Source: Bryoerythrophyllum caledonicum
Taxonomy: Eukaryota; Streptophyta; Bryopsida; Pottiales; Pottiaceae
DNA: 64,000 nt
NCBI GenBank assembly: GCA_963971425.1
Contig: OZ020518.1
Location: 14,142,190-14,206,189, forward strand
Reading direction: 5' to 3'
Shown: one piece after another, positions 1 to 64,000 of the stretch
How the letters are laid out: each line of letters opens with the position of its first letter
How positions within the stretch are numbered: position 1 is the stretch's first letter
Notes under the pieces: model-generated
What the model was told of the DNA's origin: nothing
Databases searched by the model: none
Seen by the model: only the letters and a program-made list of their open reading frames with translations
Position numbers and translations under genes: made by a program

Positions 1-639
1 ATGTTCTTTCACCATTAGAAAGGCAAACCTACCATCTTGTAACAATGTCCCTCGATATACATCACAATAAAATCGTATTAATGGAGGTAGACCTTGCTTA
101 GAACGATCCAACGCTTCTCTCCACCATTGCAAGTACCCAAGGGGCCATTGAGCTTGTAGTTCGCGCAAGCGGGTGCCCTTCTTAAACACCTTCACCACCC
201 ACTCACATCCACTCTGCAAAACTTCCTCATTCCTCTTTGGATTCCTCCAAATGACCTTGGCATGAAAGAGCTCAGCTTGTCCCCCCTCCGCAAACTTCTC
301 CCCCATCACCAGCTCACCAACCCTCAACCACCTTGTATCATAACCAAATGTCACAAAGAAATCATGCCAAATGGGGTGAGACTGCAATTCCTCAAACACT
401 TGCATGTTCTCTTGCACCACTTCCTCATCCTCAAAGTCCAACTCACACTCCGTGAGCTCGCTCCAATGCGCCTTGGAACGCTCAATTTGGTCCTCAACAT
501 CACTCCTCACCTTCCCACCCTGTGTGGCCTGCTCCAAGCTCTCCCTGTCCTCATATCTCCCTTGGGCATGATCAGGGCAACTGCCGCGATCAACTCCTGA
601 AGCGGGAGGAGCCGTCACATCGTGTCCACACTCGACCAT
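1..639 (-). CDS. DFE-type protein kinase, 5' half (copy K0, cut by window edge)
   Basis: Reading leftwards from an ATG at 639 (starting MVECGHDVTAPP) the frame stays open for 213 codons to the window edge. It matches the kinase at 21295-22596 almost codon for codon. Visible parts are an acidic leader (EDRESLE, VEDQIERSKAHW, ELDFEDEEVVQEN), the nucleotide-loop region GEKFAEGGQAELF and the probable ATP-binding lysine in WVVKVFKKGT. The catalytic loop lies off the window. At the position where copy K1 has TGA, this copy has TCA, so the ATG at 639 probably marks the ancestral start. No intron is seen in this half. What is seen: an open frame and family similarity. What is inferred: an active kinase. 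Its substrate and pathway are unknown. Confidence 0.75.
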   Translation of the reverse strand, partial: MVECGHDVTAPPASGVDRGSCPDHAQGRYEDRESLEQATQGGKVRSDVEDQIERSKAHWSELTECELDFEDEEVVQENMQVFEELQSHPIWHDFFVTFGYDTRWLRVGELVMGEKFAEGGQAELFHAKVIWRNPKRNEEVLQSGCEWVVKVFKKGTRLRELQAQWPLGYLQWWREALDRSKQGLPPLIRFYCDVYRGTLLQDGRFAFLMVKEH

Positions 640-1740
640 GCCACCCTTCCCAGAACCAGAAACAACTCCCGAGCGGCGGATGCATACGCATGTGTTCCCC
701 ATCACTTCCCAAACAAATTGCAACCCTTCTGCAACCCCAACCTCAAACCGATGCACGTCCCCACGACCTGCACACAGAAACGATACTCAATCTAAGGCCG
801 CAAACGATGGCCAAACCACAAACACCAGCCCATCCCAGCCAAAGAGCGACTAGGGTTTCAGCATCCATCAGCAAGAGATCCGCAACAGAAGACGATGCAC
901 CACAGAGAAGAACCAGCGTACCTCACTCGCCACCAGATGCAGAGTCTGCGTCCTGACCTCAAGAGCAAGACGTCAACAACGCCGGCGATGGAAGAGCACC
1001 ACTGCAGGGGAAGCGCGAACCGTGAGTCGAAGAAGGCGAGCTGAGGGTTTGGAGAGCTCAAGCTGGACATTTATTTCTCCACGCGACGGCCCACCCTGGA
1101 TGAAGACACTGTAGACGGATGCCCTCGAATCCTGTTAGGGCCGGTGGGTAGGTTCCTGGTGTCCCTCCTCCAACTTTGTGACCCCATCCATCTTTATCTC
1201 CCACTCTCAAGTCTGCAGAGCAGAATCACGAGAGCACCTTCATCTTTGATGGAGGTCGGGTGTTGGTCTCAGTGTGCATCCATCTTTCTGAGCTCAGGGT
1301 TTGGAGAGCTCGTGCTGGACATATCTTTCTCGGCTCGACAGCACACCCTGGATGAAGACACTGTAGACGGAAGCCTCTCGAATCCTTGTTAGGGCCGGTG
1401 GGAAGGACCCTGGTGTCCCTCCGACTTTGTGAACCCGGCCATCTTTCTCGCCCTCTCTCTAGTCTGCGGTGCACAAACACGTTGGTCTCAGTGTGCATCG
1501 GTCTTTCTGAGCTCTACATCCTGTTGAGACGTTTTCACAAGTGACTGGAGAGATATGGATGGGATTGGAAGCTGGATTCCGTAGCTGCTGAAGCAAAACA
1601 GAGTAATGAGCATGTGACATGAGAGTGGGTAAGGAATCCCTCGAGGCCTGATCAGTTGCAGATGAGCTGTGTCATGTCAGTTTCGATGAATGTGAACGAC
1701 TGTAAAATTAGTACGAAGCTGGATTCGTGAACAAAAACAA
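640..1740 (-). promoter_or_regulatory. Kinase K0 upstream region with internal tandem duplication
   Basis: About 1.1 kb nearly identical to 22597-23490 upstream of kinase K1, so it was duplicated together with the kinase. It probably holds the 5' UTR and promoter; no ORF is conserved as coding. It differs from the K1 version by an extra tandem copy of about 250 bp: 1041-1296 is repeated at 1297-1517, and both units share GATGAAGACACTGTAGACGG and a TTGGTCTCAGTGTGCATC segment. Confidence 0.6.
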
Positions 1741-2360
1741 GAGCAATATAAGGTAAGCCTCCCCGTAACCAACAAAAAACCATAGCCAACGCCTATAAAA
1801 TTGGGGTGTATCCAACACTCTTCCATCCCATGACCATCAACTCAACTGTAAATGGAGGTCTGCTATTAGTCAAGACCCTTACTTTTGGTAATTGGTATGG
1901 GGATACCTACTGCTCGCCACCCACCAGACATGGCTACACATTTTGAAAATTCATAACTAATTCAGTTTTCATCGAAAAAAGCTGAAATCACTTGGGTTGG
2001 AATTGTAATTCTATTGGCTATCACTGAAAAATAATAGTGTAATTATCTCCTCTCTCCATATATGCACATTCTTTTATTTGTCGGTTTTAGGGGGGCTTAC
2101 CTTATATGCACTGAGGTTCTGCACAGTTTTAGTTAGTTCAATGTTCTGGCTCTTTGACTTTACATGATATTCTATTATGGGGAGACCACTCCAGAGGTTA
2201 GAAAGTAAACAACTCTGGAATATCACAATTCTACGAACACTCATTAGAACCAAGGTGTAGTGAAGGTGACATAAAAGAGGTTGGGCAGGAAACCTACGGA
2301 AATCTCGAAGAAAAAAAGGACCCACATTTATAAAATAGTCCGCAAAGTTCGTGATCCAAA
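1740..2360 (+). repeat. Repeat A, copy 1 (PLAC8 downstream flank)
   Basis: This matches 23490-24100. The second half (about 2200-2360) also matches 11088-11187 and 12155-12215. In the 24-kb module the same sequence lies directly behind the stop codon of the PLAC8-like pseudogene, so this copy looks like the 3' flank of a lost PLAC8 gene between two modules. The first half (about 1840-2060) recurs at 31467-31745 and, inverted, at 12430-12614 plus 13918-14028. Confidence 0.65.
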
Positions 2361-3237
2361 GTCTAAATTTTTTGGTGGAACACAAGAAAAGGGAATTTGT
2401 TGGCACTTACGGGCCAAATTACTTGGAAACATGTCAGTGAGTGGTACTTAGACGAGTAGCACCGTGGTTGGAGATTGGTGTGGAGGTGGCGTGAGGAGGT
2501 TGTACACTTGCACTACACCCTTGTCACATAGTTGTTTTCACTTGCAATTGCCAAGACAGTGACTTTAGTCCCGGGGGACAAGAGATTAAAGTTTAGACCT
2601 TCTTTTACGTCTCCTCATGAATGACTTAGTGATAAGCAACATATTTGAGTGGAAACATCCACTCTTTCGATTGAAATCAAGTTTACGGGAACATGATCAA
2701 CTTGTTGAACGTCACCGTGAGAGCTCTGGGTTCAACCCACATCTAGCACACCTGCCGCTTTCACTCAAACTTGTGGCTTATATCACTAAGACATCGGCGT
2801 GGAGAATCTTCTAGTCGAGTTTTCAGGCATAAGATTGGACTCAGGCTTTAGGGTTTAAGCGCAGACACAGTTGTGCCAGAGACGACGAAGAAGAGGAGTT
2901 TAGAGTCTCTAGAAAATCTAGAATTGGACACGAATTTCGCAAAGCTCGAGTTCAGAGTCGAAGACATCCCCGTAGTCGCGGGAGGCGTGAGCGTGGAGGC
3001 CCTGCTGAGTTGCCCGGTGAAGACGACGACGAGAGCGCAGCCCGAGAGCGAGGAGGAGCGGGTGCAGAGCAGGTGGAGGAGTGACCGGAAGTGGAATATA
3101 AGTCTATAGAATGAGCCACCTCTTCTTCTTCCTGCTGCTCGCGAGAATCAAGCATCACCTCTTCCTGCCTGCAAGAATCAACTATCATCTCTTGGTGCTG
3201 CTTGCGAGAATGAGCCATCTGAACTTTCTCGACCATG
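2361..3237. other. Spacer with no recognised gene; repeat-rich right end
   Basis: No recognisable gene from 2361 to about 2950. From about 3110 the sequence turns into imperfect tandem units around TGCTTGCGAGAATCAGCC. These run into the N gap and read on the minus strand as Glu/Gln/Met-rich peptide (RKQ..EM), continuing the ORF described at 3238-3870 in another frame. Confidence 0.4.
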
Positions 3238-16439: not shown

Positions 16440-16690
16440 CATACTTCATGATTGAGAGACCTCCAAGCTCTTATATCTCTAATAGCTATCTAGAGTAAAC
16501 AAATCAAAATATTATAACTCTAGGTGACTTTACCGGCAACTCATCTCTTGGTGATTTTGAGTAATATCATCTTCTTGCATTTTGATTATTCAAACTCACG
16601 GTGACTTCACCAATAACTCAAGTGCACATTCCAAAACATAACCGTAATTCAAGGAATCCGTTCCAAACAATTCCAACTCTTCAACAGCTA
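16440..16690 (+). repeat. Repeat C copy (module 1, PLAC8 intron)
   Basis: Matches 25380-25631 (GAGAGACC.CCAA.CTCTT, GTAAACAA, AACTCATCT.TTGGTGATTT). It marks the left limit of module homology: below about 16440 the two modules differ. Confidence 0.6.
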
Positions 16691-17216
16691 CAGTAGAGGC
16701 ACCCAATTCCTATCAATAGAGTGTGCATGAAATGGTGCATGAAAATGGTAAATTCATGAAATGGTGCATGAAGCGACCCAAAATCGATAACTCAAAATCT
16801 GAAAACCCCAATCATTACCGGCATTGGGTCATGAAGTGTGCAATTTTGGGTTGCTCCACCTCAATTGAGCTCTCATTGGTATCCTGCCCTCGAAAGTTGA
16901 ACAAGGCTGATCGGCATTGGGTACCTCCATGAGTTGGTTATCCATGGCATGTCTTCTCTCATTTACTCACTCTCACTTATTGGCATTGGGCAAAGGAGGG
17001 TATCAAATCTCACTTACTCTACAATATATTATATGCACTGGTGGATTTTAAGCTTTTTAATTTTATATCAATTGAACATCTTTGAGATTAAATTTGAAAA
17101 AAGTATTTGTTGAGTTTCATTCCTAATTCTGCATCTTTCTACATCAATGTTTCTAACATACAATGTCATTTGAGTCCCCAACTAGCTTAAGTGATCGAAA
17201 TTGGGTGCCTCGACCT
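16691..17216. mobile_element. TA-inserting MITE (MITE D), copy with paralogous empty site
   Basis: Ends are CAGTAGAGGCACCCAATTCC and GAAATTGGGTGCCTCGACCT (inverted). Flanks are TA at 16689-16690 and 17217-17218. The paralogous module at 25622-25640 reads AACAGCTAAAGAGAAC, the exact pre-insertion site with a single TA. It is 526 bp, has no ORF, and is very similar to 40221-40746. TA target and CAG termini suggest mobilisation by a Tc1/mariner transposase. Confidence 0.85.
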
Positions 17217-17250
17217 TAAAGAGAACAAGTGAGGATTGATAGGCAAATCG

Positions 17251-17370
17251 TACAAGAGTCGAGGTCATCTCTGCATCCGATGATCTCCGATGTCCAAGGC
17301 TCATTGCCTGGCCTTTCATAGCTCTTTAGAAGTGGTTGGCCACATTCATTACACCGATGTACCACCAACT
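17251..17370 (-). pseudogene. PLAC8-family gene, single remaining exon (module 1)
   Basis: The reverse strand reads VHRCNECGQPLLKSYERPG, then NEPWTSEIIGC and DDLDSC. This is the zinc-ribbon-like start of the plant PLAC8 domain (CxxCGQPLP.SYE.P...EPWTTGIFGC..D..SC). MITE D is inserted directly behind it and the downstream exons found in module 2 are missing, so it is a fragment. Plant PLAC8 proteins are Cys-rich membrane-associated proteins linked to cell number and metal handling. Confidence 0.7.
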
Positions 17371-17819
17371 GCTTCAACAACCTCAAACCTTAGTAAAAAT
17401 CATCCCTCAATTCTTCTACCTACGAGTGCAAATATTCTCCCAAATGAGATCTGCATCTTTTTCATAAAAACCTTGTTCCAGCAAAATAATCAAGAAAAGT
17501 TCATTTCCACTCACAACATCCAAAGCACTCCTACTGTCCTACAACACAAGGAATATTCCCAAATTAGCAAGATTGAAGTTCATAACGCTCTACAAATATT
17601 TCAGAACATGTCACAAATGAGTGAGCTATGTGTCTTCTTCATACCAACCTCGTTCCAGAAAAATAATCCAGAGAATTTCACTTCTACTGAAAATAGAAAG
17701 TTAACATTCTAAACAAGCAATATTTACTTGCAACGATATTTGATATAGATCAATCTCGTATTCTATAAAAAAATTCCGACAAATAAAAAAAAATCAAGTT
17801 ATGCGCCTTTCAAAAATCA

Positions 17820-18012
17820 CCATTCCGAGCGCTCTCAAAGCAGGCTGAAATTTGTTCGAACTTGAGGTTCTAGACCACCAAGCTGTTCTATACTTATCAA
17901 CGATTCTAGGAAAGAAATCACCAAGCTCTTCTACTTTCTATCAAGAGTGAGGAAAGAAAAGTATTATATTCTAAAAGAGGGCATAACTTATTGAAAATCT
18001 TACTCTAGAATC
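17820..18012 (+). repeat. Repeat C copy (module 1, PB1 region)
   Basis: Contains CCACCAAGCTCTTCTACTTT and CTATCAAGAGTGAGGAAAG, as at 26500-26570 and 58120-58210. Confidence 0.5.
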
Positions 18013-18055
18013 TTTGAGGGTTGGCACCTCCGTAGTTGACAAATTTCAAGCCTTA

Positions 18056-18405
18056 CCGTTATCAAATTGCTCGGAAGGGAAGTTGTCCTTGACAGGTTTC
18101 GTTGTTTAACCATCAACAACGAGAGGATCGTCTATTTCTAACACATAGTCGTCTGTCTTGGTCTGACACAGGACTCATTGATGCAACCACCACTCCGGGC
18201 TCGGTCAACAACAATATATTTTCAACTTCTAGTATTTGGTCAAGTTTCAGTAAAATCTCGATTGCAAACATCACCATAATCCTGGTGAGGTTTTCATGAT
18301 AGAGTTGAAGACCTTCAAACTCACAAGGGAACATAACTCTATAAGGTGTAAATCAAGTAGCCAAATACCTACCCTAGGGAGAGGGAACTTGACTGTCAAG
18401 CTCCT
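18056..18405 (-). pseudogene. PB1-gene remnant (exons 3-4 only, module 1)
   Basis: The reverse strand reads MFPCEFEGLQLYHENLTRI and AIEILLKLDQILE as in exon 4 of the intact gene at 57918-59499. It then loses frame after the SPVS segment (reading DQDRRLCVRNRRS where the intact gene has TKSDDYVLEIDD). An exon-3-like piece lies at about 18365-18400 with a stop. The PB1 exon, first exon and last exon are not found. This is a decayed copy. Confidence 0.75.
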
Positions 18406-18798
18406 GCAATGACAACATGCATCAGAAGAGGAGGTTGTGGAAAAGCCAAAGGCATTAGGGAGGTTGGGGTTGGAATCTTGATAACAAAAAGAGTAGGCTG
18501 GAGCTTGGACCTATGAGTTTATAGGGGGGTGGGTGGAGAGAAGGGTCTTCTTATAAATAAACAAAGACAAATTAAGATATCTTCCTTTTAATATTAACAT
18601 TGGTCGAAGAAACTTGAATGACAACCTGAAAATTTTATTATATTTTAATAAATAATTTCCAAATGTTTATCAAGAAACATAATTTCATGTTTCAGTTGAT
18701 ATTTGAATGTATTAATTCCATTTCCTACACTTGAGCAAATCAACAAACCTTGATTTCATTTGGTGTCTTTTTTTTTAGTACACAATATCTACTTTTAA

Positions 18799-19460
18799 CC
18801 CCTAAAAGCCCAGGCATTTTCCCTCATGAAACACTCCAAAACTGCCATCATCAACAAGAGGCAACGAAATCTAACATTAAAGTCTAATTTTAGACTTTCA
18901 ACCGTACAAAATTAAAATAGACACGTATATGAACTTACAATAAAAATTTGGTTGCAATCCACCGCACGGATGTGAAGATTATGGCGTTTGAAGTGCAAAG
19001 AAAAGTTATTTTCCCCCCTTGCCCGGCAAGGTCAGCCTACTTTGACTAGGTATATCTTCTAGTTTTTACATTGAAATGTGATCAAATCTTTTACCAATAT
19101 GACTTATATGTTGTTAGCTATTTGTGTGCAAAATTTGAGGTCAATTCGAGGGGTAATAGATGTAGAAATATACACTTTAGTGAAAGGGGGAACAAAATGT
19201 TGACAATTATTACGTAAGTGATATGAAATTGTTTGTTTCATACAAGTTGTTGCATTTGAGAATCCCAATGGTGGAAACTTTCAATTTATTTTTTCACTAA
19301 TTTTAGAAAAAGAAACGACTAAAAATAGTAAAATCCATAATTTTCATGAATATATGGAATAAATAAAGCATTATGGGTGGCCAACATATCCCGTTGTTGA
19401 CCGCCCTCGCAGCTGGACGGGAAAAAAAAAAAAAAAAAAAAATTATTAAAAAAAAAAAAA

Positions 19461-19502
<42 letters not shown>

Positions 19503-19926
19503 GCCGGCCTGCATCTGGCATTGGGTGCTGGCAGGCCAGCTGACGGCTGATTGATTGCTGTTTTTAAAAAAAAATATTTTAACAACTCTTTTAATAATTT
19601 TCAATGCATTTTCTACTTGGACTTCGTGCATAGAAGTTTGGATTCCTTTCCTCGCCCTTTTGTCCCAAAATTCTGCCCCATTTTTCTCCTCAAATTGCAT
19701 TGGTTGACATGGCTGCCCCAACAGTCCAAACTCCCCATTTTGACCTTTGAAGGCTAATAACTTTTGAACCAAAAGTCCAAAATCATATTTGAAAAATTCC
19801 CCATGTAGATTTCTTAAAGGACAATGCAGTGTAAAATTTTCATGAGAATCGGAGTATTTTTCCAACTCAAAATTACATGCCCAAAATCCAAAACGTACCA
19901 GTTTGGTACACTTGGGCTTTTAGGGG
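18799..19926. mobile_element. TTAA-flanked non-autonomous DNA transposon, copy 3 (intact ends)
   Basis: TTAA (18795-18798), then CCCCTAAAAGCCCAGGC; it ends TTGGGCTTTTAGGGG, then TTAA (19927-19930). It is 1128 bp and inverted relative to the near-identical 37528-38631. The centre (19421-19501) is an A-run followed by a T-run of about 80 bp, flanked by GC-rich ends (GCCGGCCTGCATC). No transposase. It is inserted in the spacer between kinase K1 and the PB1 remnant; modules 2 and 3 lack it. Confidence 0.9.
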
Positions 19927-19999
19927 TTAATACTATTATGATATAAATGATAATAGTTCCATATAAGCCAATTTATAGAAGTAGGGGACAAGTGTGACA

Positions 20000-20290
20000 T
20001 TTTGAGCAAGGAAGAGAGGTACCAAAATTGCTTAAACACATTTTAATTTTATGTGAACTCAATTTGTCATTGAATAAGAATCCAAACAATAGAAAGTAAG
20101 TTTTACACCACATTGTGGTGATAAAGATAGAACATGGAAATTTCCAACTTACATTTATTCTTTATGACAAAATGAAGCTATTTTGGTACATTTTCAAATA
20201 ATTCTTAAAAATGTTTGAGTTGCTATGTATTGCAATTTTAATAGTAAAGACAAGATTCTTTTTGTTAAATATGAATGACAACCTTAACAC
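20000..20290. mobile_element. Old TTAA-element relic in module spacer (module 1)
   Basis: Diverged similarity to the middle of the TTAA elements (GAGGTACCAAAATTGC, ACACCACATTGTGGTG, AAAATGTTTGAGTTGC). The same relic lies at 28240-28560 and 60190-60550, so it predates duplication of the modules. Confidence 0.5.
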
Positions 20291-20379
20291 TTAAATGTGA
20301 TTAAAATTAACCTATAATATCTCTAAATTTCTATCATTAACTCTAAGACAAGAAAATGTAGCAAAATTTCATAGTACAA

Positions 20380-20640
20380 TATGATCTCTCCTTCTTCACC
20401 TTCAAAGGGCACTAAACCTAGTTCAAACTTGAGGTCAAACACCACCAACCTCTTCTATACTTGATAAAGACTCTAATTAAGAGAAACCACCAAGCTTTTC
20501 TCCATCTACAGCTATCAATACTTTACAAATAGTACTATTACTAATCAAAAATTGAGTCTCTGACTTCAATTTTTGGTGAGTTTATAAAAGAACTCTTATA
20601 ACTTCAAATAATTACAACGAAGACTCAAATATGGATGGTT
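20380..20640 (+). repeat. Repeat C copy
   Basis: ATGATCTCTCCTTC, AAACCACCAAGCTTTTCT and a TTTGGTGA..TTA..AAA end, shared with 28700-28990 and 61905-62160. Confidence 0.55.
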
Positions 20641-21294
20641 GTAACAAAGAAATCACAACTTCCACAACATTAGACAAATATCTTTATTGTAACTTCTTAT
20701 CCAACCACATCCTCAGCATGCATACCAAGTTTAATACATAAGTAGATAATCTCTTCTTCATCAGCATCTAATGTAACATGGAATTTATAATAAGAAGCAT
20801 ATATCTTGGCATCATAGTAGATCTCATAACTTCTAATGCACAATCCTATCAATTGAGGGCTTCCATATCTCCCAATCCCACTCTATCAACGGTCCTATGT
20901 GATTATACATAGGTCCCCCACAACAATACTCTCAATGATTAGAAATAAAATAATAACCTAGGCCCCAATTGCAAATGATTGCAGAACATGGTATAGAAAA
21001 TAAAAAGGGACACTATAATGTTAAAACAAGGGGAATGATTGAAGTAACCTAGAGTAGTAGATGTAAGGATGAATAGCAAAGGTTTGCTAGAATATTGAAT
21101 GAAAATGACTAATCTACAAAAGGAGAAAGGAAATCCAATGAGCACAAAAGCAAGTAAATAAATTGACCAACATAGAAATACATGGTCCATTCCATCAAAT
21201 TGCCAACTTTGAATGTTACAACTTATCATTCTTTAGAAGCACATGTTGGACCTTGAAGACAAATAAAGGCAACTACTTGGAACTCCCACCCTAC
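20641..21294. other. 3' flank of kinase K1, module-conserved, non-coding
   Basis: Parallels 28990-29640 and 62160-62837 (GAAGCATATATCTTGGCATC, ATACTCTCA). Probably the kinase 3' UTR and spacer. No ORF. Confidence 0.5.
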
Positions 21295-22596
21295 CTATTT
21301 TGGTTCTACATCCAAACCTTGTTGCAATAACCACTCATCATGTTTTCTATTACGCTCCTCTTCATACTTTAGAAGATCTAGTTGAGCTTTTCTAACAACA
21401 CCTGAATTACTTGATAGAAGTCCTATTATTTCTGGAAACAAAGGTCTCTTTGAACAATCCACATCCCAACATCTATTTAACAACTCCTTTATCCAACTAT
21501 CTACGTATGTTGGAATTCTCAATCGTTCTCCTTGGATTACTAAATCATAATCATTTCTACCATAACCTTCAAAAGGAAGTTTTCCTGTCAAGACCTCATA
21601 GCATGTCATGCCGTAGCTGTTTACGTCTGCTTGTTTGGAAAACACCTTTATATCCTTGCTTGGAACTTTATTCTTCAAAGCTTGTAATATTTCCGGCGCC
21701 ATGAAGAATCTAGTTCCAACAACTCCAATGGAGCACTCAAAGTCCGCCACGTAATAGTTTGGTAAGAATCCAACAGTATCACAAACTAGCACATTTGATG
21801 CTTTGAGGTCCCTATGAAGGACATTATGGTTGTGCAACCAATCCATCCCTAGTGCAATAGAAAACATGATCCTTTCAACTTCATCTTTTGAAAATGGTCC
21901 ATGGTCATTTTCAATGTCCAACATAGCACGATCAATCCGGCTTCGCAAATCTTCATTTTCTCTCTCCATTAGAAAGGCAAACCTACCATCTTGTAACAAT
22001 GTCCCTCGATGTACATTACAATAAAATCGTGTTAATGGAAGTAGACCTTGCTTAGAACGATCCAAATCTTCACTGCTCCATTGCAAGTACCCATGGGGCC
22101 ATTGAGCTTGTAGTTCGCGCAAGCAGGTGCCCTTCTTAAACACCTTCACCACCCACTCACATCCACTCACCAAATCTTCCTCATTCCACTTTGGATTCCT
22201 CCAAATGACCTTGGCATGAAAGAGCTCAGCTTGTCCCCCCTCCGCAAACTTCTCCCCCATCACCAACTCACCCAACCTCAACCACCTTGTGTCATAACCA
22301 AATGTTCCAAAGAAATGACCCCAAGTGGAATGCGACTGCAATTCCTCAAACACTTGTCTATTCTCTTGCACCACTTCCTCATCGTCAAGGTCTGACTCGC
22401 ACGCACACTCCGTGAGCTGGCTCCAATGCGCCTTGGAACGCTCAATTTGGTCCTCAACATCACTCTTCACCTTCCCACTCCGTATGGCCCGCTCCAAGCT
22501 CTCCCTGTCCTCATATCTTCCATGGGCATGATCGGAGCTACTTCCGCGATCAACTCCTCAAGTGGGAGGAGCCGTCTCATCGTGCCCGGACTCCAT
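21295..22596 (-). CDS. DFE-type protein kinase, copy K1 (leader disrupted by a stop)
   Basis: A 400-codon frame holds a whole kinase domain. Numbering that frame: nucleotide loop GEKFAEGGQAELF (81-93), ATP-site lysine in EWVVKVFKKG (K118), HRDLKASN (228-235), DFE instead of DFG (252-254), a very short activation segment to MAPE (266-269), a DVNSYGM helix-F motif where sister copies have DVYSYGM, and RCWDVDCSKRP (342-352). The C-tail ends in GLDVEPK. HRD and the metal-binding DF aspartate are kept, so catalysis is possible. The ATG equivalent to that of copy K0 lies at 22596-22594 but is followed by TGA at codon 13 (22560-22558; K0 has TCA). No ATG follows in frame before the domain, so this copy may be silenced or use another first exon. 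Single exon. Function unknown. Confidence 0.65.
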
Positions 22597-23490
22597 CAAG
22601 CCACCCCTCAATACAAGGAAAACATCACCCAAGTGGCGGATGCATGAGCATGTGTTCCCCATCACTTCCCAAACAAATTGCAACCCTTCTGCAACCCCAA
22701 CCTCATACCAATGCACGTCCCCACGACCTGCACACAGAAACGATTCTCAATCTAAGGCCGCAAACGATGGCCAAACCACAAACACCACCCCATCCCAGCC
22801 AAAGAGCGACTAGGGTTTCAGCATCCATCAGCAAGAGATCCGCAACAGAAGACGATGCACGACAGAGAAGAACCAGCGTACCTCACTCGCCACCAGATGC
22901 AGAGTCTGCGTCCTGACCTCAAGAGCAAGACGTCAACAACGCCGGCGATGAAAGAGCACCACTGCAGGGGAAGCGCGAACCGTGAGTCGAAGAAGGCGAA
23001 GTGAGGGTTTGGAGAGCTCAAGCTAGACATTTATTTCTCCACGCGACGGCCCAGCCTGGATGAAGACACTGTAGACGGATGCCCTCGAATCCTGTTAGGG
23101 CCGGTGGGTAGGTTCCTTGGTGTCCCTCCTCCGACTTCGTGAACCCTGCCATCTTTCTCTCCCTTTCTCAAGTCCGCAGAGCACAATCACGAGAGCACCT
23201 TCATCTTTGGTGGAGGTCGGGTGTTGGTCTCAGTGTGCATCGATTCTTCGGAGCTCTACATCCTGTTGAGACGTTTTCACAAGTGACTGGAGAGATATGG
23301 ATGGGATTGGAAGCTGGATTCCGTAGCTGCTGAAGCAAAACAGAGTAATGAGCATGTGACATGAGAGTGGGTAAGGAATCCCTCGAGGCCTGATCAGTTG
23401 CAGATGAGCTGTGTCATGTCAGTTTCGATGAATGTGAACGACTGTGAAATTAGTACGAAGCTGGATTCGTGAACAAAAGCAATATAAGGT
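22597..23490 (-). promoter_or_regulatory. Kinase K1 upstream region
   Basis: Nearly identical to 640-1740 except for the missing second tandem unit. It presumably carries the kinase 5' UTR and promoter. The 70-codon minus frame at 23030-22818 has a counterpart at 1070-858 but shows no codon-level constraint that I can judge by eye. Confidence 0.5.
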
Positions 23491-24225
23491 AGGACTCCCC
23501 ATAACCGACAAAAACCCATAGCCAACGCCTATAAAATTGGGGTATATCCAACCCTCTTCCATCCCATTACCACCAACTCAGCTCTAAATGGAGGTTTGCT
23601 ATCAGTCAAGACCCTTACTTTTGGTAGTTGGTTATGGGGGTACCTACTGTTGGCCACCCACTAGACATGGCTGCACATTTTGAAAATTCATAACTAATTC
23701 AGTTTTCATCGAAAAAATATGAAACCACTTGGGTTGGAATTGTAATTCTATTGGCTATCACTGAAAAATAATAGTATAATTATCTCCTCTCTCCATATAT
23801 GCACATTCTTCAACTTGTCGGTTTCAGGGGGCTTATTTGATATGCACTGAGGTTCTGCACGGTTTTAGTTAGTTCAATGTTCTGACACTCTGACTTTACA
23901 TGCTATTCTATTCTGGGGAGACCACTCCAGAGCTTAGAAAGTAAACAACTCTGGAATATCACAATTCTACGAACATTCTTTAGAACCAAGGTGTAGTGAA
24001 GGTGACATAAAAGAGGTTGGGCAGGAAACCTACGGAAATCTCTAAGAGAAAAGGACCCAAAATATAAAATAGTCCGCCAAAGTTTGTGATCCAAAGTCAT
24101 CTGTGCTCACACCAATATCTGTTTTTTCTAAAAGAATACGATATGCTGTTCCATTGTATCTGATCCTACAAACAAAAGACGAAAGAACCCAGTCAAGAAA
24201 GCAAAGGAAAGGGCTAAAGTGAAAT
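23490..24225 (+). repeat. Repeat A, copy 3, running into the PLAC8 3' flank
   Basis: Matches 1740-2360, then continues to the stop codon of the PLAC8 pseudogene. The part 24060-24225 also recurs at 12175-12440. Confidence 0.65.
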
Positions 24226-25770
24226 TCAGAAAAGCTGAATCTCGGCATTCTCTTTATGGCTCACGGTTGCTGATTCATTGGCATTCATCTCTTGTTGATG
24301 CTGGGCATTGATGATGGTCATGGACATCACCACGTTATCAGACAGACGGCCCTGCATCTCACAGTGCTCCTAGCATTTGGCACATCAGTGCAAACAACAA
24401 TGGACCATGCAGGGATCGCAAGGCGAATTCTGCAAACACAAAAGATGAAAATCCCTATTATGTATACTCGCAATGTCTACTGCAAAAGATAACAGTGTAT
24501 TCTAGAACCAGTGTTATGTTGCCTTCTATTTAGGAGCATGATTCCTAATTGCGCTTCTTGAATCAAATTGAAATAGGCTAATGAAAATGATCCGAGCGCC
24601 CATTGAAGAGACGAAATCGATGTGTTAGAGATGAGCAAGGGCCGGTAGAAATTGAGTGTTAGGCCGTCCTAGCTTTGGTACTAGAATGTTCTCTTGTGAA
24701 TTATAAACGAGTATACTTTTGAGCTATGAAAAGAGGTGATCAACTACTCAAATTCATCTCTTGAAACCTGACCAACACCAACGATGCAGTGAAAGTAATG
24801 CAACGGAAGATGATACTTCTTCTATAACTCCTGTCCAAAGAGGCCCGTGTAGTAGATGCTGTACATCCACCATGCAAAGAGCAAGCCCTTTGCCACAACG
24901 AAGGCTGTGTTGGGATCTATTCCATGATGCGATATTGTGGTAGCTCCAAGGGCAATACCGCCCTCCACAAACACACTGTGGCATATACTAGGAGTGGTCA
25001 ATGGAATCTACTCCTTCAAGTTCTCCAAATTGCGCCCAAATAGGACACATGGACAGAAGGAACCAGTCTTTGCCTGCACATATATAGTTAACTTTCCTAG
25101 TATCGATGAAAGACATGGGCATACCCCATGGCGCTAGAACTAGCTCACATGAGTTTCCCATCACACTGAAGTTACTTGTACAGTAAGGGAAAGATACCAT
25201 TAGTTTTGACCTCTTTTCTCATTTTAAAAACCATTCAAAAGAGCTCTAAATATATCCATAAACATCCATAATTAGCCAAAAGAGATAAAGGGCAGCTAAG
25301 ACTCATGATACAACATGACCCCTCCTTCATTCTCGAGTGCAACTAAAACAAATTCTAACTTAAGTTTAAAGACCACCAAGCTCTTTCATACTTAAATTGA
25401 GAGACCACCAAACTCTTTGATATCTGTTAGCTATCTAGAGTAAACAAGTGTTATAACCTTGAGCGACTAGATACCAACAACTCATCTTTTGGTGATTTTG
25501 AGTAGTATTATCTTCTTGCATTTTGATTATTCAAACTTAGGGTGGCTTTACCACTAACTCACTGCACATTCAAGAAACAAAACCATAATTCAAGGAATCC
25601 GTTCCAAGCATTTCCAACTCTTCAACAGCTAAAGAGAACAAAGCATCGTACAAGAGTCTAGGTCATCCCCGTATCCGAAAATCCCTGATGTCCAGGGCTC
25701 ATTGCCTGGCAGTTCATAGCTGTCCGGAAGTGGTTGGCCACATTTATTACACCGATGCACCACGAGCTGC
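24226..25770 (-). pseudogene. PLAC8-family gene, broken copy (module 2)
   Basis: Exons recovered on the reverse strand: (a) about 25770-25650, VHRCNKCGQPLPDSYELPG and NEPWTSGIFGYGDDLDSC; (b) 25078-24790, GSFCPCVLFGRNLENLKE, stop, IPLTTPSICHSVFVEGGIAL, GIDPNTAF, AKGLLFAWWMYSIYYTGLFG; (c) 24424-24226, NSPCDPCMVHCCLH and MQGRLSDNVVMSMTII to stop. These are the diagnostic PLAC8 parts (CPCVLFGRN, CH.VFVEGGIALG, SPCDPCMVHCC). There are at least four in-frame stops, a frame problem at the a-b junction and a lost splice donor after KKYHL. The a-b intron holds repeat C. It lies downstream of the PB1 copy in the same direction. Confidence 0.85.
25310..25639 (+). repeat. Repeat C copy (PLAC8 intron, module 2)
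   Basis: Contains ACCACCAAGCTCTTTCATAC and ends at the empty MITE-D site at 25630-25631. Confidence 0.6.
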
Positions 25771-26305
25771 TCAAACAACCTCAAACCTTAGTAAAATTCA
25801 TCCCTCAATTTTTCTACCTACGAGTACAGATAAACTCACAAATGAGTTCCGCATCTTCGTCATACAAACCTCGTTCCTGCAAAATAATTACTTCTACTCA
25901 CAACACCCAAAGCGCTCTTACAACACAAGGGAACATTCCGAAACAAGCAAAATTGACACTCTACAAACATATCAGAACATGTCACCAATGAGCTATGTGT
26001 CTTCTTCTTAAGGTCCTTGTTCTAGAAAAATAATCCTGAGAATTTCACTCTCACTGAAAACACGAAAGGAGCATTCTAAACTCTCAAAATTGACTTGCAT
26101 CGAATTGTACGAGAACATTCCGACTATTCAAAATATTTCAAGGTGGCGCTATTATTTCCACGTCAGCCTCTTAAATAGCAAGATTGACTTCCTCCAGAAG
26201 TAATAACGCTCTAAAGAATAAACTGAAGCAGATGAGAAAATGTCTCCAGTAAACAGAGAGGTTCAATGTGTGGGGGGGAATTTTGATAATGTTGATACCA
26301 TACCT

Positions 26306-27614
26306 TCAGTCACTCAAGCTTAGAACTTGTAAGTCTTTTGCCATCTGCTGCATAATTGCAGCACGTACTAGGAACTCTGAGTCAAAACCTGATCGGCTGC
26401 AAAGATACACACATGTATAGGTTACACATAGAAATAACCCAAGTGGATGTGAGCTATTCGTAAAGATACCATGGCCTCTCCTTTGCTCTCAAAGCAAACT
26501 AAAGTCAATTCTAACTTGAGTTTCAAGACCACCAAGCTCTTCTACTTTCTATCAAGAGTAAGGAAAGAGTAGTAAAATAAATTCAAAGAGGACGTATCTT
26601 ACTCCAAATCTTATTAGTAACTCTAGATTCTGAGCAAACTAACCAAAATCTCAAGCCATATTCTTATCAAATTGCTAGGAAGGAAAGCCGTCCTTGGCAG
26701 GTTGGATTGTTGAACCAACAACAACAACATAATCGTCTATTTCCAGCACATAGTCGTCTGTCTTAGAGGATACATGACTCACTAATGCAACCACCACCCT
26801 GGGCTCAACGAGCAGCGGTTCATTTACAGATTCTTGTACCTGGTCAAGTTCCAATAAAATCTTTGCTGCAAACCTCGTGAGACTTTCATCATAGAGTTGA
26901 AGACCTTCGAACTCACAGGAAACATTGCTCAGTAAGCTGTAAATCAAGCATCCAAACTCATGGAAAACTCTTAGAAAGACATTTATAGGGTGAAGGTTTG
27001 GAATAGTTGTTGAAATTTCATACCTATCCAAGGAGGAGGATTGGTTGTCATCGCTGCTGCAAGTACAAACATGAGGTTGTGGAAAACCAAAGGCATTAGG
27101 GAGGTTGGAGCTGGAGGGCATGCCTACTTTAAGAATCATGTTATAGAAGGAGTAGGCTGGAGCTTGGACCCTAGAGCTTACATGGAGACGGAGGATGGGC
27201 CTCACGAGGCAGAACAATGACACGGACGGGGTTGAGCTTCTCATACACACACATCTTAAATGTCGTCCACCATGGTCACCTCGTCATTGTCCTGGCTAGT
27301 GTACACAATTGACGGCGTGGACGCAGCCGAGATCTGAAACGCCTCCCGGATGGTGCTCTGGAGCTGGTTGAACGGTATTTCAGGGCCCTCGCCATGCTGC
27401 CTACATCGGATGTTGTAGAGTGCTCTCATGCTCATGTGCCGGAGCATGTTGCCATACTTAATCTCCAGGTGGCAAAATAAGTACAAAAACCATAAGGGAT
27501 CTTCACTAATCTGCCACCTCTAAACATAAATCACTATGTGATCATTAGTTGTTCTCCCAAATTTGCCACCTCAAGTAGGACACAAAACTTGAAGATGTAA
27601 ACGTGAGGGTCCAT
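26306..27614 (-). pseudogene. PB1-domain gene, broken copy (module 2)
   Basis: It has the same five-exon layout as the intact gene at 57918-59499. Start MDPHVYIFK at 27614; the donor after it is changed (AAG then TT instead of GT). The PB1 exon (about 27465-27190) reads IKYGNMLRHMSMRALYN, IREAFQISAAS, DNDEVTMVDDI, then has a stop and a 2-bp deletion. Exon 3 equivalent at about 27070-27030 (TTNPPPWIG). Exon 4 reads CEFEGLQLYDESLTR and DDYVLEIDDYVVVVG. The last exon ends in LQVLSLSD at 26306. Clearly a decayed sister. Confidence 0.85.
26470..26640 (+). repeat. Repeat C copy (intron 4 of PB1 copy 2)
   Basis: CTAACTTGAGTTTCAAGACC and ACCACCAAGCTCTTCTACTT, same position as 58080-58290 in module 3. 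Confidence 0.6.
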
Positions 27615-28239
27615 GGCTGCTCCTCCAATCTAGGAGATCCAACCACTTGGGTTTCTTCTAAAAATTTCACATGTTTCTTTCCAAAAAACTTCACCACACC
27701 TCAGAGGCCAAATTTGTTCTAAACTATGTGTGTTGATCTAGATGCATATCCAACGAACGTAAACAGAGCCCATAAACCCTGATTGGAGGTAAAAGTTGTC
27801 GTTGTAGGGAAAGAGTGTGAAGTGAGTTGGGCTCAGGATCTTAAGTGCACTAATTTGTTTCAAGGTCTTTGATTCTTTTTTAAATGATGATTGCACAATG
27901 GAAGTAGAAGGAGAATAATCTAGGAAAGGGGGGTGGGGGTGGAGAGAAGGGTTTTATTATAAATAATTAGAGAAGATCTAAGATATCTCCTTTTTAATAT
28001 ATGCATTGGTTGAAGAAACTTCAATGACAGTCTTGATATTTTATTTTATTTTAATAAATTATTTCCAAATGTTTATCAAAAAACATAATATAATGTTTTA
28101 GTTGATAAGAGAATGTATTTTTTCAAATTCTTGCACCTGAGCGGATGAACAAACCTTGATTTTATTTGGTGCCAAATTTCTAATACACAATATCTAATTT
28201 TTTATACTATAAGTACGTTAGAGATTGATACTAATTCCT
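27615..28239. other. Spacer between PB1 copy 2 and kinase K2
   Basis: Holds the presumed PB1 5' UTR and promoter (to about 27850). A stretch at 27930-28110 is shared with 18540-18720 and 59885-60080 (GGAGAGAAGGGTTTTATTAT, TTTAATAAATTATTTCCAAA). No gene. Confidence 0.45.
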
Positions 28240-28560
28240 TAAAAACCAATTTGTAGAGGTAGTGGACAGGTGTGATGTATTGAGCAAGGAAGAAAGGTAC
28301 CAAAATACTTTACACGTTTTGATTTTCTGTAAACTCGATTCGTCATTGAATGAGAATCCAAACGATAGAAAGGAAGCCTTACACCACATCTTGTGGTGGT
28401 AAAGATAGAACATGGAAATATTAAACTTAAATTTATTCATTATTACAAAATAAATATATTTTGGTACATTGCCAAATAATGTTTGAAAATGCTTGGGTTG
28501 CTATGTATTGGAATTTCTACTGTAAAGACAAAATTCTTTTTGTAACAGTTTCAAAGGAAA
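28240..28560. mobile_element. Old TTAA-element relic in module spacer (module 2)
   Basis: As at 20000-20290: AAGGTACCAAAATAC, ACACCACATCTTGTGGTGG, AAAATGCTTGGGTTGC. Confidence 0.5.
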
Positions 28561-28699
28561 TAATCTTTTCAATTTGTGTGGTGTATATATATATGTACAA
28601 AATGACATTCTTACTACGTAGATATAATTAAAATTAACCTCTAAAATCTCAAAATTTCTATCATCAACTCTAAGACAAAAAAATGTTGCATAGTTACAT

Positions 28700-28990
28700 C
28701 GTACAATATGATCTCTCCTTCATCCTCAAAGGCCACTGAACGTAGTTCAAACTTGGCGTCAAATACCAACAACCTCTTTTACACTTGATAAGGACTCTAA
28801 TTAAGAGAAACCACCAAGCTTTTCTACATCTACATCTACATCAACATCAATCAATAGTGAACAAAGAATACTATTATTGATTAAAGATTGAGTCTCATAT
28901 TAAATCTTTGGGTGACTATACAAAATAACTCTTGTAACTTCAAATATTTACATTAAAGTCTTAAACAAGGATGGTGGAACAAAGAATTCA
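28700..28990 (+). repeat. Repeat C copy
   Basis: ATATGATCTCTCCTTCATCC and AAACCACCAAGCTTTTCTAC, equivalent to 20380-20640. Confidence 0.55.
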
Positions 28991-29635
28991 CAACTTCCAC
29001 AACATTAGACAAATGTCATTTTTGTAACTTCTTATCCAACCACATCTTCATCAAGCATACCAAGTTAATTACGGAAGTCGATAATCTCTTCTACATCAAC
29101 AACTAATGCACTATGGAATTCAAAACAAGAAGCATATATCTTGGCATCATTGTAGATATCGCACCTTCTAAATGCACAATCCTATCAATTGAGGGCCTCA
29201 AAATCTCCCATGTCCACTCTATCAAGGGTACTTTTGTGATCATCCACAGGTCTCCTACAACAATACTCTCAGTGATTAGGGAAAAAAGAATAACCTATGC
29301 ATCAAACATAAGATTGAAGAACATGGTGTAGAAAACAAAACGCGTCTCTAAAAATTTGTAAAAATAAGAGGAAATTTTCAAGTAACCTTGAATAGTAAAT
29401 GTGGGGATGAATAGCAAAGGTCTGTTGGAATATTGAACACAAATGACAAATCTAGAAATGGAGAAAGAAAAGCCTACAAGTACAAAAATAAGTCAATGAA
29501 TTGAATAATATACAAGTACAAAATCCACCAGAAAATTGCCAATAAGACATGATATCATAATTTCTATACATAGACATGTTGGATCTTGAAGGTTTGCAAA
29601 GACATGTACTTGGAATTATCCATCCTATCTATTTA
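28991..29635. other. 3' flank of kinase K2, non-coding
   Basis: Module-conserved spacer as described for 20641-21294. No ORF. Confidence 0.45.
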
Positions 29636-30385
29636 GGTTCCACATTCAAACCTTGTTGCAATAACTTCTCCTCATATTTCTATATCTCTCATCTTCATAC
29701 TTTTCAAAATATAATTGAACTCCTCTAGCAGCAGCGGAATTACTAGAGAGAATTCCAATTATCTCTGGAAACAAAGGTCTCTTTGAACAATCCACATGCC
29801 GACAGCTATTCAACAACTACTTTATCCAGCTATCTACATATTCTAGAATTCTCGTTCGTTCTCCATGGATTACTAAATCATAATCATTTTGAGGATGACC
29901 TTCGAAAGGAAGTTTTCCTGTCAAGACCTCATAGCATGTCATGCCGTAGCTGTACACGTCCGCTTCTTTGGAAAACACCTTTGAATCCTTGCTTGCAACC
30001 TTATTCTTCAAAGCTTGCATTATCTCCGGTGCCATGAAGAATCCAATTCCAACAACTCCAATGGAGCACTCAAAGTCCGCCACATAATAATTTGGAAATG
30101 ATCCTTTCTTAAATTCACAAACAAGCACATTCGATGCTTTCAGGTCCCTGTGAAGGATGTTATGTTTGTGCAACCAATCCATCCCTCGCGCAACATGAAA
30201 CATGATTCTTTCAACTTCAACTTTTGAAAATGGTCCATGGTCATTTCCAATGTCCAACATTACACGATCAATCCGGCTACGCAAATCTTCATATTCTCTC
30301 TCCATTAGAACGGCAAACCTTCCATCTTGTAATAATGTCCCACAAAATAGATCACAACGAACTCATATTTGTTAAAGTAGAGCAC
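29636..30385 (-). pseudogene. DFE-type protein kinase, truncated copy K2
   Basis: Homology begins at about 30385, in the middle of the kinase; the leader, nucleotide loop and ATP-site lysine are missing. It reads LQDGRFAVLMEREYEDLR, HNILHRDLKASNVLV, VADFECSIGVVGIGFFMAPE and EADVYSYGMTCYEVLTGK. It stops at DSWIK (TAG) and continues in frame as CSKRPLFPEIIGILSS before a frame change near the C-terminus. It cannot make a kinase. The upstream break separates it from an unrelated stretch at 30386-30935. Confidence 0.9.
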
Positions 30386-30939
30386 GCTCAAAATTTTCTC
30401 AAATTTTCACCCACGTTTGATTTGAATCAAACTAAACCACTTCGGCCATGTTGGTGCATATCTTTCTTCGAGGGCTTATACTCCTCTTACTCAAGGAAGG
30501 TTGTCGTGTTCTTGGTTCCCACATTGGAGAAGCTAGAGGAGCACTTGACAAATCCAGGGCAAGAATGGTGATTCCATCTTTGTTTGCACAAGCTTACAAG
30601 AAGAAGAAGAACGCCGGTCCCGGAGGGATCGGAGTGAATAAAGTGTCTGTTCGCACCACCACTAAGACCATGCCCACTAGGCAGCACAAGCTTACACATC
30701 TTTGTTGTAGAATGCCAAACGAGTTCTCTACCACCACGCTCTTCTTCCCCGTCTTCAGGTTCATATTTTTATGAACCAGCCAGTCAAATGAAGAAATGGT
30801 TGCCTTCAAGGTGAGGAAATCCTTTGAAGGTTTGTAGAGCCTGGAATTTATCAAAGGTATAATCCTTAAATGTCAGTTGAAAATTGTGTATATGGTCACA
30901 TATTTTACTCTGTAAAATACATATTCTGTATCGACACCT
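30386..30939. other. Unidentified sequence replacing the kinase 5' half
   Basis: Higher GC than its flanks, with two overlapping plus-strand frames (30448-30774, KKKKNAGPGGIGVNKVSVR; and 30224-30571, SRKVVVFLVPTLEKLEEH). Neither is recognised. It could be an exon piece captured at the break. No supported gene. Confidence 0.3.
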
Positions 30940-32342: not shown

Positions 32343-32636
32343 GAGGTGACGACGAGGTACGATTTCCTCGTAAATCGTGACTTGTGCGAATACACTTGTT
32401 TCCTGTCAACGCTTGTGGCGATGGCGAGGCTCGGTCTGTGTGCAAATCTACGCTGCGAGCTTCACTAGTTCCATCAACACTTCTTCGGGCCGAGCGCATC
32501 GAGAAGCCGATCTGCGCTTATGTGCGTGAGTCAGCCTCGGGTTGAGAGATGTAGTGCTGCGATGATGTGATCTCGGAGGAAACGGGAGGGATTTTGTTGA
32601 TGTGATCTGCATTGCCGAGGAGAGATTGGTGGAGAG

Positions 32637-41080: not shown

Positions 41081-41186
41081 CGGGAGGTGGCGGGTCGGGG
41101 TTTTGGTTTGGGGGACGCCCGGGGGTGGTCTTGGTGAGAGGGGATGAGTGTGGGGGTGGGGGAGCTGGGGTTGTAGCGTTGGAGGG

Positions 41187-57917: not shown

Positions 57918-59499
57918 TCAATCACTCAAGCTTTCTTGTGAGTCATTAAACCTCTGCCGCAAAATTGCAGCACGCATTAGGAACTCTGATTCAAAACCTG
58001 ATCGTGCTGCAAACATACAAACATGTATAGGTTAGAAGTAGAAATAACCCAAGTACATGTGAGCTATTCGTAAAGATACCATGGCCTCTCGTTTGCTCTC
58101 AAATCTGTTCTAAATTGAGTTTCAAGACCACCAAGCTCTTCCATACTCAACAAGGATTCCAGGGAAGAAACCACCAAACTCTTGTACTTTCTATTAAGAG
58201 TGAGACAAGAGAAGTATTATTAATTAAAAGAGGGAGTATCTTACTGAAAATCTAGGTGAATTTACTAGTAACTCTAGAATCTCTCGGAACTGACCCAAAT
58301 CTCAAGCCTTACCGTTCTCAAATTTCTCGGAAGGGAAGTCGTCCTTGGCAGGTTGGATTGTCGAACCATCAACAACAAAAGAATCGTCTATTTCCAGCAC
58401 ATAGTCGTCTGATTTGGTGGACACAGGGCTCACCGATGCAACCACCACCCCTGGTTTATTTACAGCTTCCAGTATTTGGTCAAGTTTCAGTAAAATCTCG
58501 GCTGCAGACAACACCATAATCGTGGTGAGACTTTCATGATAGAGTTGAAGAACTTCAAACTCACAGGGAAACATTGCTCTGTAAGCTATAAATCAAGCTT
58601 CCAAACTCATGGAAAATTCTGAGAGAGACGTTTAGAAGGTGAAGGTCTTGGATAGTTGTTGAAATTGCATACCTGCCCATGTGGGAGGGTCGACTGTCAA
58701 TGCTGCTGCAATCACAAACATGCATCAGATGAGATCCATCCCAAAGGCAATAGGGAGGTTGTAGCTGACTTAAGGAATCCAATGAATCTAATCACAGAAG
58801 GAGTTAGCTGGAGCTTGGACCCTGGAGCTTACATGGAGACGGAGTCTGGGCCTCACGAGGCAGAACGGTGACACGGACGGGGTTGAGCTTCTGGTACACA
58901 CACGCATCTTGGATGTCGGAGTCGTCCACCATGGTCACCTCGTCGTTGTCCCGATCAGTGTACACGATGGACAGCGCGGACGCAGCCGGGATCTGAAACG
59001 CCTCCCGGATGGTGCTCTGGAGCTGGCTGAACGTCATGTCGGGGCCCTCGCCGTACCCGTCTCGGTTGTCGTAGGGTGATCTCACGCTCATCCGCCGGAG
59101 CATGTCGCCATACCTGATCTGCAGGCGGAAAATAAGTAAAAAAAATATCAGCCACCTCAAAACACAAATCATCAACATGGGATCAGTTGTCCTCCCACCT
59201 CAAGTAGCAACTCCATTCGTTGCTCCAGATAACATATCAAAGGCTCAATGGACAAGTCTTAGTATATTATCTGAGGCAACAAGTCTAAGTCGGTCACGTT
59301 TCTTTATTGTGCAAATGTCTCATCAAATTTCTTCCACTAATGCTACTCTGCAAAAACTGAACCATTATTACTCTCGATTCTAGCACACCTGGAAAAGCTT
59401 AAGTTCTAACCTAAAACCAAGGGTTGTAAAAGCAATACGCCCAAATATCTCAACTTGAGGTAGGAGATGAACCTTGAAGATGTAAATGTGAGGGTCCAT
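57918..59499 (-). CDS. PB1-domain protein, small, intact (module 3)
   Basis: Five exons (descending): 59499-59473, 59118-58833, 58705-58673, 58576-58313, 58006-57918. Phases fit throughout; 232 aa ending LSD. The PB1 domain spans about residues 5-95: MDPHIYIFK joined to IRYGDMLRRMSVRS (basic cluster with the conserved R/K), MTFSQLQSTIREAF, LSIVYTDRDNDEVTMVDDSD (the OPCA acidic loop) and KLNPVRVTVLP. Having both a basic face and an OPCA loop suggests a type I/II PB1 able to oligomerise, as in plant NBR1, whose PB1 it most resembles. The ZZ, NBR1 and UBA domains are not present. The rest (CEFEVLQLYHESLTT, AAEILLKLDQILE, DDYVLEIDDSFVVDG, SEFLMRAAILRQRF) is not recognised. Two broken sisters lie at 26306-27614 and 18056-18405. 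Confidence 0.8.
58080..58290 (+). repeat. Repeat C copy (intron 4 of the intact PB1 gene)
   Basis: GAGTTTCAAGACCACCAAGC and CTTTCTATTAAGAGTGAGAC. Confidence 0.6.
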
Positions 59500-62837: not shown

Positions 62838-64000
62838 CTATTTTGGTACTTCAACCAAACCTTGTTGCAATAACTTCTCTTCGTACTTTCTATATTCCTC
62901 CTTTTCAAACTCTTGAAACTCTAATTGAACTTCTCTAACAACAACAGAATTATTTGAGAGAATTTCCATTATCTCTGGAAACAAAGGTCTCTTTGTGCAA
63001 TCCACATCCCAACATCTAATCAACAACTCCTTTATCCAACTATCCACATATTTTGGAATTCTTGGTCTTTCTCCATGGATTACTAGATCATAATCATTTT
63101 GACGATGACCTTCAAAAGGAAGTTTCCCAGTCAAGACCTCATAGCACGTCATGCCGTAGCTGTACACGTCTGCTTCTTTTGAGAACACCTTTATATTCCT
63201 ACTTGGAATCTTGTTCTTCAAAGCTTGCAATATCTCTGGTGCCATGAAAAATCCAGTTCCAACAACTCCAATGGAGCACTCAAAGTCCGCCACATAATAA
63301 TTTGGATCATATCCAACCTTTTCACAAATCAACACATTTGATGCTTTGAGGTCTCTATGAAGAATGTTATGGTTGTGCAACCAATCCATCCCCAATGCTA
63401 CATCAAACATGATCCTTTGAGCTTCATCTTTCGCGAATGGTCCATGGTGCCATCTAAAACGCAACATAGCACGATCAATCCGGCTCCGCAAATCTTCATG
63501 CTCTTTTTGCATTAGAAAGGCAAACCTTCCATCTCGTAACAATGTCCCACGATGTACATCACATTGATATCGTAATGGTGGTGGTAGACCTCGCTCTTTA
63601 CAATCAATATAGTGTGCCCACCATTGCAAGTACCCAAGGGGCCATTGAGCTTGTAGTTTGCGCAAGCGGGTGCCCTTCTTAAACACTTTCAGCACCCACT
63701 CAAATCCCTCCTTGAAATCTTCCTCGTTGTCTTTTGGCTCACTCCAAATGACCTTGGCATGAAAGAGCTCAGCTTGTCCCCCCTCCGCAAACTTCTCCCC
63801 CATCACCAACTCCCCTAACCTCACCCGCCACGTGTCATAACCAAATGTCGCGAAGAAATGACCCCAAGTGGTATGCAACTGCAATTCCTCAAACACTTGC
63901 CTATTCTCTTGCGCCACTTCCTCATCGTCGAGATCCGACTCACTCTCCGTAAGCTGGCTCCAATGCACCTTGGAACGCTCAATTCGGTCCTGAACAACAT
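62838..64000 (-). CDS. DFE-type protein kinase, copy K3 (open to window edge)
   Basis: The frame is open from the window edge (VVQDRIERSKVHWSQLTESE) to TAG at 62838, 386 codons in view. It has all kinase landmarks: GEKFAEGGQAELFHAK, FEWVLKVFKKGTRLRKL, LHRDLKASNVLICEKVG, YVADFECSIGVVGTGFFMAP, EADVYSYGMTCYEVLTGK, RCWDVDCTKRPLFPEI and the tail QGLVEVPK. HRD and the DF aspartate are present, and the Gly of DFG is Glu as in every copy here. A C-terminal helix (LEFQEFEKEEYRKYEE) follows the domain. Compared with K1 it keeps DVYSYG and has no stop in view, so it is the best candidate for a working member. Its start lies off the window. Target unknown; Raf-like/TKL flavour inferred from short segments and APE context. 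Confidence 0.85.
   Translation of the reverse strand, partial: VVQDRIERSKVHWSQLTESESDLDDEEVAQENRQVFEELQLHTTWGHFFATFGYDTWRVRLGELVMGEKFAEGGQAELFHAKVIWSEPKDNEEDFKEGFEWVLKVFKKGTRLRKLQAQWPLGYLQWWAHYIDCKERGLPPPLRYQCDVHRGTLLRDGRFAFLMQKEHEDLRSRIDRAMLRFRWHHGPFAKDEAQRIMFDVALGMDWLHNHNILHRDLKASNVLICEKVGYDPNYYVADFECSIGVVGTGFFMAPEILQALKNKIPSRNIKVFSKEADVYSYGMTCYEVLTGKLPFEGHRQNDYDLVIHGERPRIPKYVDSWIKELLIRCWDVDCTKRPLFPEIMEILSNNSVVVREVQLEFQEFEKEEYRKYEEKLLQQGLVEVPK

Follow-up and report, generated by a model that had tools for sequence, protein, structure and literature searches.

A tandem array of kinase, PB1 and PLAC8 genes on chromosome C6 of Bryoerythrophyllum caledonicum that looks kinase-driven, with probable hitch-hiking companions

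The stretch of DNA analysed here (the window; 64,000 nt, G000:C6:14142190-14206189, in a genome of 437 Mb) belongs to what we take, at a probability of roughly 85%, to be a kinase-driven tandem array, amplified by recombination, in which one PLAC8 gene and a PB1 piece of NBR1 type travelled with the kinases. The pattern formed by the trio is real, and is seen in gene order, in strand, in the homology of the spacers within the window, in the clustering on a tree of those kinases that have PB1 or PLAC8 companions, and in the unequal decay of the three families. It looks like hitch-hiking, not teamwork, and the kinases, together with at least one PLAC8 copy, are most likely under selection.

Comparison of the window with itself, a check that the earlier note on this DNA had proposed, reveals units that are collinear direct repeats spanning kinase, spacer, PB1, spacer and PLAC8. 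The stretch at 16.4-22.1 kb repeats that at 25.4-30.4 kb, both match parts of 57.6-64.0 kb, and positions 1-2,363 match 21,955-24,098 in blocks of about 89-93% identity. The larger blocks among units B, C and D are 1-2.2 kb long and 77-84% identical (E 8.9e-164 to 0.0), a similarity far beyond chance; the spacers lie inside these blocks, and the claims of the earlier note that three families occur in a repeated order and direction, separated by homologous spacers, are both borne out. All kinase, PB1 and PLAC8 parts in the window are on the minus strand (Table 1) and the repeats run on past its edges. In the direction of transcription the order is kinase, PB1, PLAC8 and next kinase, with various parts missing from single units, and the repeat is better read as delimited in this way. 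Coding stretches of a housekeeping gene, COG5 (conserved oligomeric Golgi subunit 5; 32601-34536, plus strand), lie within the kinase array on the opposite strand, and there is an open CAND6/7-type GOST seven-transmembrane ORF at 41148-42485 (plus strand), a 1.3-kb inverted copy of which, 97% identical, is located about 55 kb to the left of the window.

Table 1. Kinase, PB1 and PLAC8 features of the window (positions in the window).
Feature	Position	Strand	Evidence and remarks
Unit A kinase, N-terminal part	1..702	-	tblastn in extended region; ATG 702; open 453-aa ORF extending past the left edge to position -656
Unit A kinase upstream flank	703..2363	-	homology to the stretch ending 24,098; 89-93% identical blocks
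Unit B PLAC8 exon-2-like piece	17201..17422	-	G000:C6:14159390-14159611, 56% identity
Unit B PB1 gene remnant, 3' part	17919..18511	-	blastn to unit C 26,530-27,170 and to unit D
Unit B kinase K1	21298..22662	-	frame 22,557-21,298 open, 420 aa; in-frame stop between ATG 22,662 and frame
Unit C PLAC8 pseudogene	24232..25775	-	exon 2 25,775-25,638; exon 3 25,070-24,807; exon 4 24,435-24,232
Unit C PB1 gene copy	26530..27468	-	PB1 exon 27,468-27,156, two overlapping frames, with stops (rows 14169427, 14169345)
Unit C kinase K2	29676..30419	-	interrupted fragment, N-terminally truncated
Unit D PB1 gene copy	58305..59124	-	PB1 exon 59,124-58,807 open, then second open stretch 58,592-58,305
Unit D kinase K3	62841..64000	-	open 453-aa ORF; ATG 64,199 just beyond the window; MGNTCAC N terminus

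The trio recurs beyond the window on C6, with the order kinase, PB1, PLAC8 and next kinase at 13.898-13.946 Mb (minus strand, like the window) and again at 14.428-14.455 Mb (plus strand). The strand of the companion is that of the nearest kinase in 52 of the 52 mapped PB1 and PLAC8 rows. A genome search with kinase query P0001 gave 101 matches from the 100 scored of 921 first-look candidates, and at least 62 kinase match rows, fragments included, have at least 60% identity to K1. The map drawn at that threshold, with matches at 49-55% left out, holds 47 kinase rows on C6:13.56-15.78 Mb (two are perhaps one broken gene) and 15 places on other chromosomes; the NBR1 row of the PB1 search and six PLAC8 rows outside the array or from other PLAC8 genes are omitted, and two weak PLAC8 rows (E 0.0125 and 0.0154) are retained. 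Both companions are present within 10 kb and on the same strand for 11 of the 47 C6 kinase rows and either companion for 19, and 28 have neither within 10 kb; at the search sensitivity used, 0 of the 15 places on other chromosomes (at least 60% identity) has a PB1 or PLAC8 copy. The PB1 query yielded 13 match rows, 12 in C6:13.57-14.45 Mb (two being one copy) and one at the NBR1 locus on C4, and the PLAC8 exon-3 query matched 11 places, all 11 inside C6:13.90-14.46 Mb. Among the papers listed on a PLAC8-PB1 cluster, on moss or bryophyte kinase expansion and on bryophyte NBR1 duplication, no such arrangement appeared in titles or abstract starts.

PLAC8 exon-4 fragments are also found about 0.44-0.53 kb from kinases and just downstream of them, on the minus strand at C6:14132162 and 14140903 and on the plus strand at 14467078-14467241 and 14530352. 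These units appear as if the PB1 gene and the front of PLAC8 had been deleted.

Each of the kinases is encoded in one open exon in the intact copies, and the three window copies have Pfam kinase matches (E 1.5e-24, 4.2e-26 and 3.4e-21; K3 4.2e-26). Of the motifs expected of the protein kinase superfamily, 26 of 27 aligned copies retain HRD and 24 retain APE, and the lysine and glycine-rich loop are mostly kept. In the 25 copies shown, out of the 27, DFE stands where a canonical active kinase has DFG, its E being invariant in 14 chosen copies, and the members are putative enzymes. K3 (64,199-62,841) begins MGNTCACIRH; an MGN start is present in 24 of the 27 copies, M1, G2, C5 and C7 are invariant across 14 picked from them, and the kinases are predicted, from this N-terminal motif only, to be lipid-anchored. 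They resemble tyrosine-kinase-like or Raf-like protein kinases in HRD and APE, and EGFR, Mer and RAF are among their PDB sequence matches, but they differ in DFE for DFG, in the MGN start and in having one exon. A structure predicted from the three window sequences had a mean pLDDT of 34 and was discarded. The DFE/MGNxCxC single-exon family is very large, extending over C6:13.56-15.78 Mb and other chromosomes with 100 of 921 candidates scored. The earlier note had placed kinases K1, K2 and K3 in units at 17.2-22.6, 24.2-30.4 and 57.9-64 kb, and all three are there, but as genes they fare differently: K1 has an in-frame stop ahead of its kinase part, K2 is truncated (nothing in it matches residues 1-124 of the K3 query) and contains stops, and K3 is open with its start, at 64,199, outside the window.

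The history of the array can be followed on a tree of 27 kinases. The label companion-free needs two changes on this tree, against a mean of 9.1 for shuffled labels and with 0 of 500 shuffles as low, near-copies on the tree helping any label to cluster. The 12 companion-free kinases fall in a group of 13 (support 96/96), the thirteenth member of which (L049) has a PB1 copy nearby. The unit therefore behaves as if it had arisen about once and was then amplified; one gain or one loss fits equally well because the drawn root is the midpoint. Together with the complete strand agreement, these values support the proposal of the earlier note that the arrangement was amplified as a unit and then eroded. 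Kinases also pair across the two arms of the array: L034 (minus arm) with L028 (plus arm; support 100/99), and L031 (plus) with L037 and L024 (minus; support 100/99, the branching order among the three being unresolved). Each arm has two PLAC8 copies between these kinases, and we infer from the cross-arm pairings and matching PLAC8 pairs that a block was copied in inverted orientation.

Selection has not treated the three families alike. Thirty kinase loci were cut out as the best 30 matches, a choice that favours open frames, and 27 of them were used; L038, L039 and L047 were dropped for lack of an ORF reaching 400 aa. Over the 351 pairs of these 27 ORFs the median dN/dS is 0.43 (range 0.29-0.65), and nine of nine chosen pairs depart from neutrality (p at most 0.0036). 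Among the matches listed with at least 350 aligned residues and at least 60% identity, 29 of 53 are stop-free over the query and 24 contain stops; in simulation, neutral copies stayed free of stops in 3% of runs when divergence was 5% and in none of 500 when it was 10%. Equal decay of all three genes with dN/dS near 1, which the earlier note had named as part of the evidence that would refute its proposal, is thus not what is found: the kinase is constrained, PLAC8 exon 3 partly so, and the PB1 copies are near neutral.

The PLAC8 copies in the window are interrupted and have no exon 1, and none is a complete gene. Sequence homologues are present in units B and C, as the earlier note had proposed, but that of unit C is a pseudogene (two stops in exon 3, two in exon 4, and no exon-1 match found) and that of unit B is just an exon-2-like piece, with its exon-2 frame open at 17,389-17,219 and three stops in a longer match row. 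The identity of the family comes from a gene outside the window (L052, C6:14428172-14430639; Pfam PLAC8, E 3.7e-11) to which a window copy is linked by sequence match. This gene, which may be of the cell number regulator 6 type, is the one place with four open (predicted) exons and a clear exon-1 match; it shares the domain and four-exon form with that type, from which the broken window copies without exon 1 differ. It sits 1.3 kb upstream of an open kinase, and the PB1 beside it is just a 37-residue piece with two stops. A candidate at C6:13765728 (L053) was rejected as a different PLAC8 gene, 36% identical over part of its length.

It could be that kinases and PLAC8 are both retained, that PB1 alone is a passenger, and that short proteins are made from the additional PLAC8 exon copies. 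No stop interrupts exon 3 in 5 of its 11 places, and its protein identity exceeds the mean of a neutral simulation in nine of nine copies and the 97.5% bound in eight of nine (identities were rounded, spans differ slightly, and the query itself and a 32-residue match at 14454534 were dropped); the PLAC8 copies have therefore not been neutral throughout. This excess may nonetheless reflect constraint that acted before the copies were truncated and in the lineage leading to the open copy, a clear exon-1 match is confined to a single place, and the two extra copies of highest similarity (13940569 and 14437388) are not followed by an exon-4 match, which makes this reading unlikely.

Of the PB1 copies in the window, unit D has the only PB1 exon without stops (Pfam PB1, E 3.7e-8); the unit C copy contains stops, and in the unit B remnant no PB1 domain was found and the tblastn match is just nine residues. 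The unit D exon is 49% identical to the PB1 domain at a C4 locus, which has the one match in the genome to the FW (four-tryptophan) domain (PF16158) and was taken as NBR1, the selective autophagy receptor. Two of the 12 PB1 rows in the array are stop-free (unit D and L058), and the paired arginines described for plant NBR1 in PMC9582228 are kept. The array copies differ from NBR1 in that no PF16158 match was found in the array and the stretch after PB1 in unit C shows no similarity to residues 1-280 at the NBR1 locus. A PB1 sequence on C15 (L007) was rejected as a relative, having no match to the array PB1 query. Among three array copies, one with stops, dN/dS is 0.65, 0.75 and 0.84, and none of the three pairs departs from neutrality in a test that had roughly one quarter as many synonymous sites as those on the kinases. 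Between array PB1 and NBR1 PB1 it is 0.13-0.24 at a saturated dS of 1.7-2.4, and the PB1 lineage was therefore constrained before the array copies split; constraint was thus lost after that lineage separated from NBR1.

These data bear on the idea that a kinase with a lipid anchor, a PB1 protein that oligomerises and a membrane protein of the PLAC8 family act in one pathway, for example in defence or autophagy, and are kept linked as a functional cluster. Strand agreement is complete, the four-exon PLAC8 gene adjoins an open kinase and PB1 exons remain open in unit D and L058, but at the search sensitivity used no mapped unit has kinase, PB1 and PLAC8 all open; the open PLAC8 gene itself neighbours an interrupted PB1 piece, PB1 evolves near neutrality, and most C6 kinases and all mapped places elsewhere lack companions. 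The claim of the earlier note that the three are kept together for a co-inherited function is not supported, most companions containing stops or being truncated, and we regard such a cluster as highly unlikely. A narrower proposal is that the open PB1 exons make short PB1-only proteins that would cap or divert NBR1 filaments beside lipid-anchored DFE kinases, so that the array would tune autophagy at membranes; we consider it a very long shot. That the array is an assembly artefact or a chance similarity is almost certainly wrong: the window contains a single run of N, 200 bases long, but DNA divergence between the copies is about 3-23% and they carry stops of their own, and they are therefore not one mis-assembled copy.

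Under the preferred reading of a kinase-driven array, a family of single-exon kinases that has expanded in this genome would have come to lie beside a PLAC8 gene and a piece of an NBR1-type PB1 gene, and unequal recombination would have copied the kinase-PB1-PLAC8 stretch in tandem. At least one block of units would then have been copied in inverted orientation, giving minus and plus arms about 0.5 Mb apart. Selection may act on the number or diversity of kinases, one PLAC8 copy may still do its ordinary PLAC8 job, and the PB1 pieces would be passengers. Against passenger status stand the open PB1 exons of unit D and L058, the exon-3 excess in PLAC8 and the past constraint on the PB1 lineage.

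Arrays formed by tandem and segmental duplication evolve by birth and death, as in the receptor-kinase and NLR clusters of plants. The C6 array resembles these in its many copies, its mixture of open genes and pseudogenes, its inverted blocks and selection on one family, but differs in that two unrelated genes have been captured in the unit in constant order. It offers a clear natural case of gene hitch-hiking, with three unrelated genes in one unit of which one is clearly retained and two are mostly decaying, and a caution that repeated linkage need not mean shared function. Of more interest, perhaps, is the expansion of the kinases themselves.
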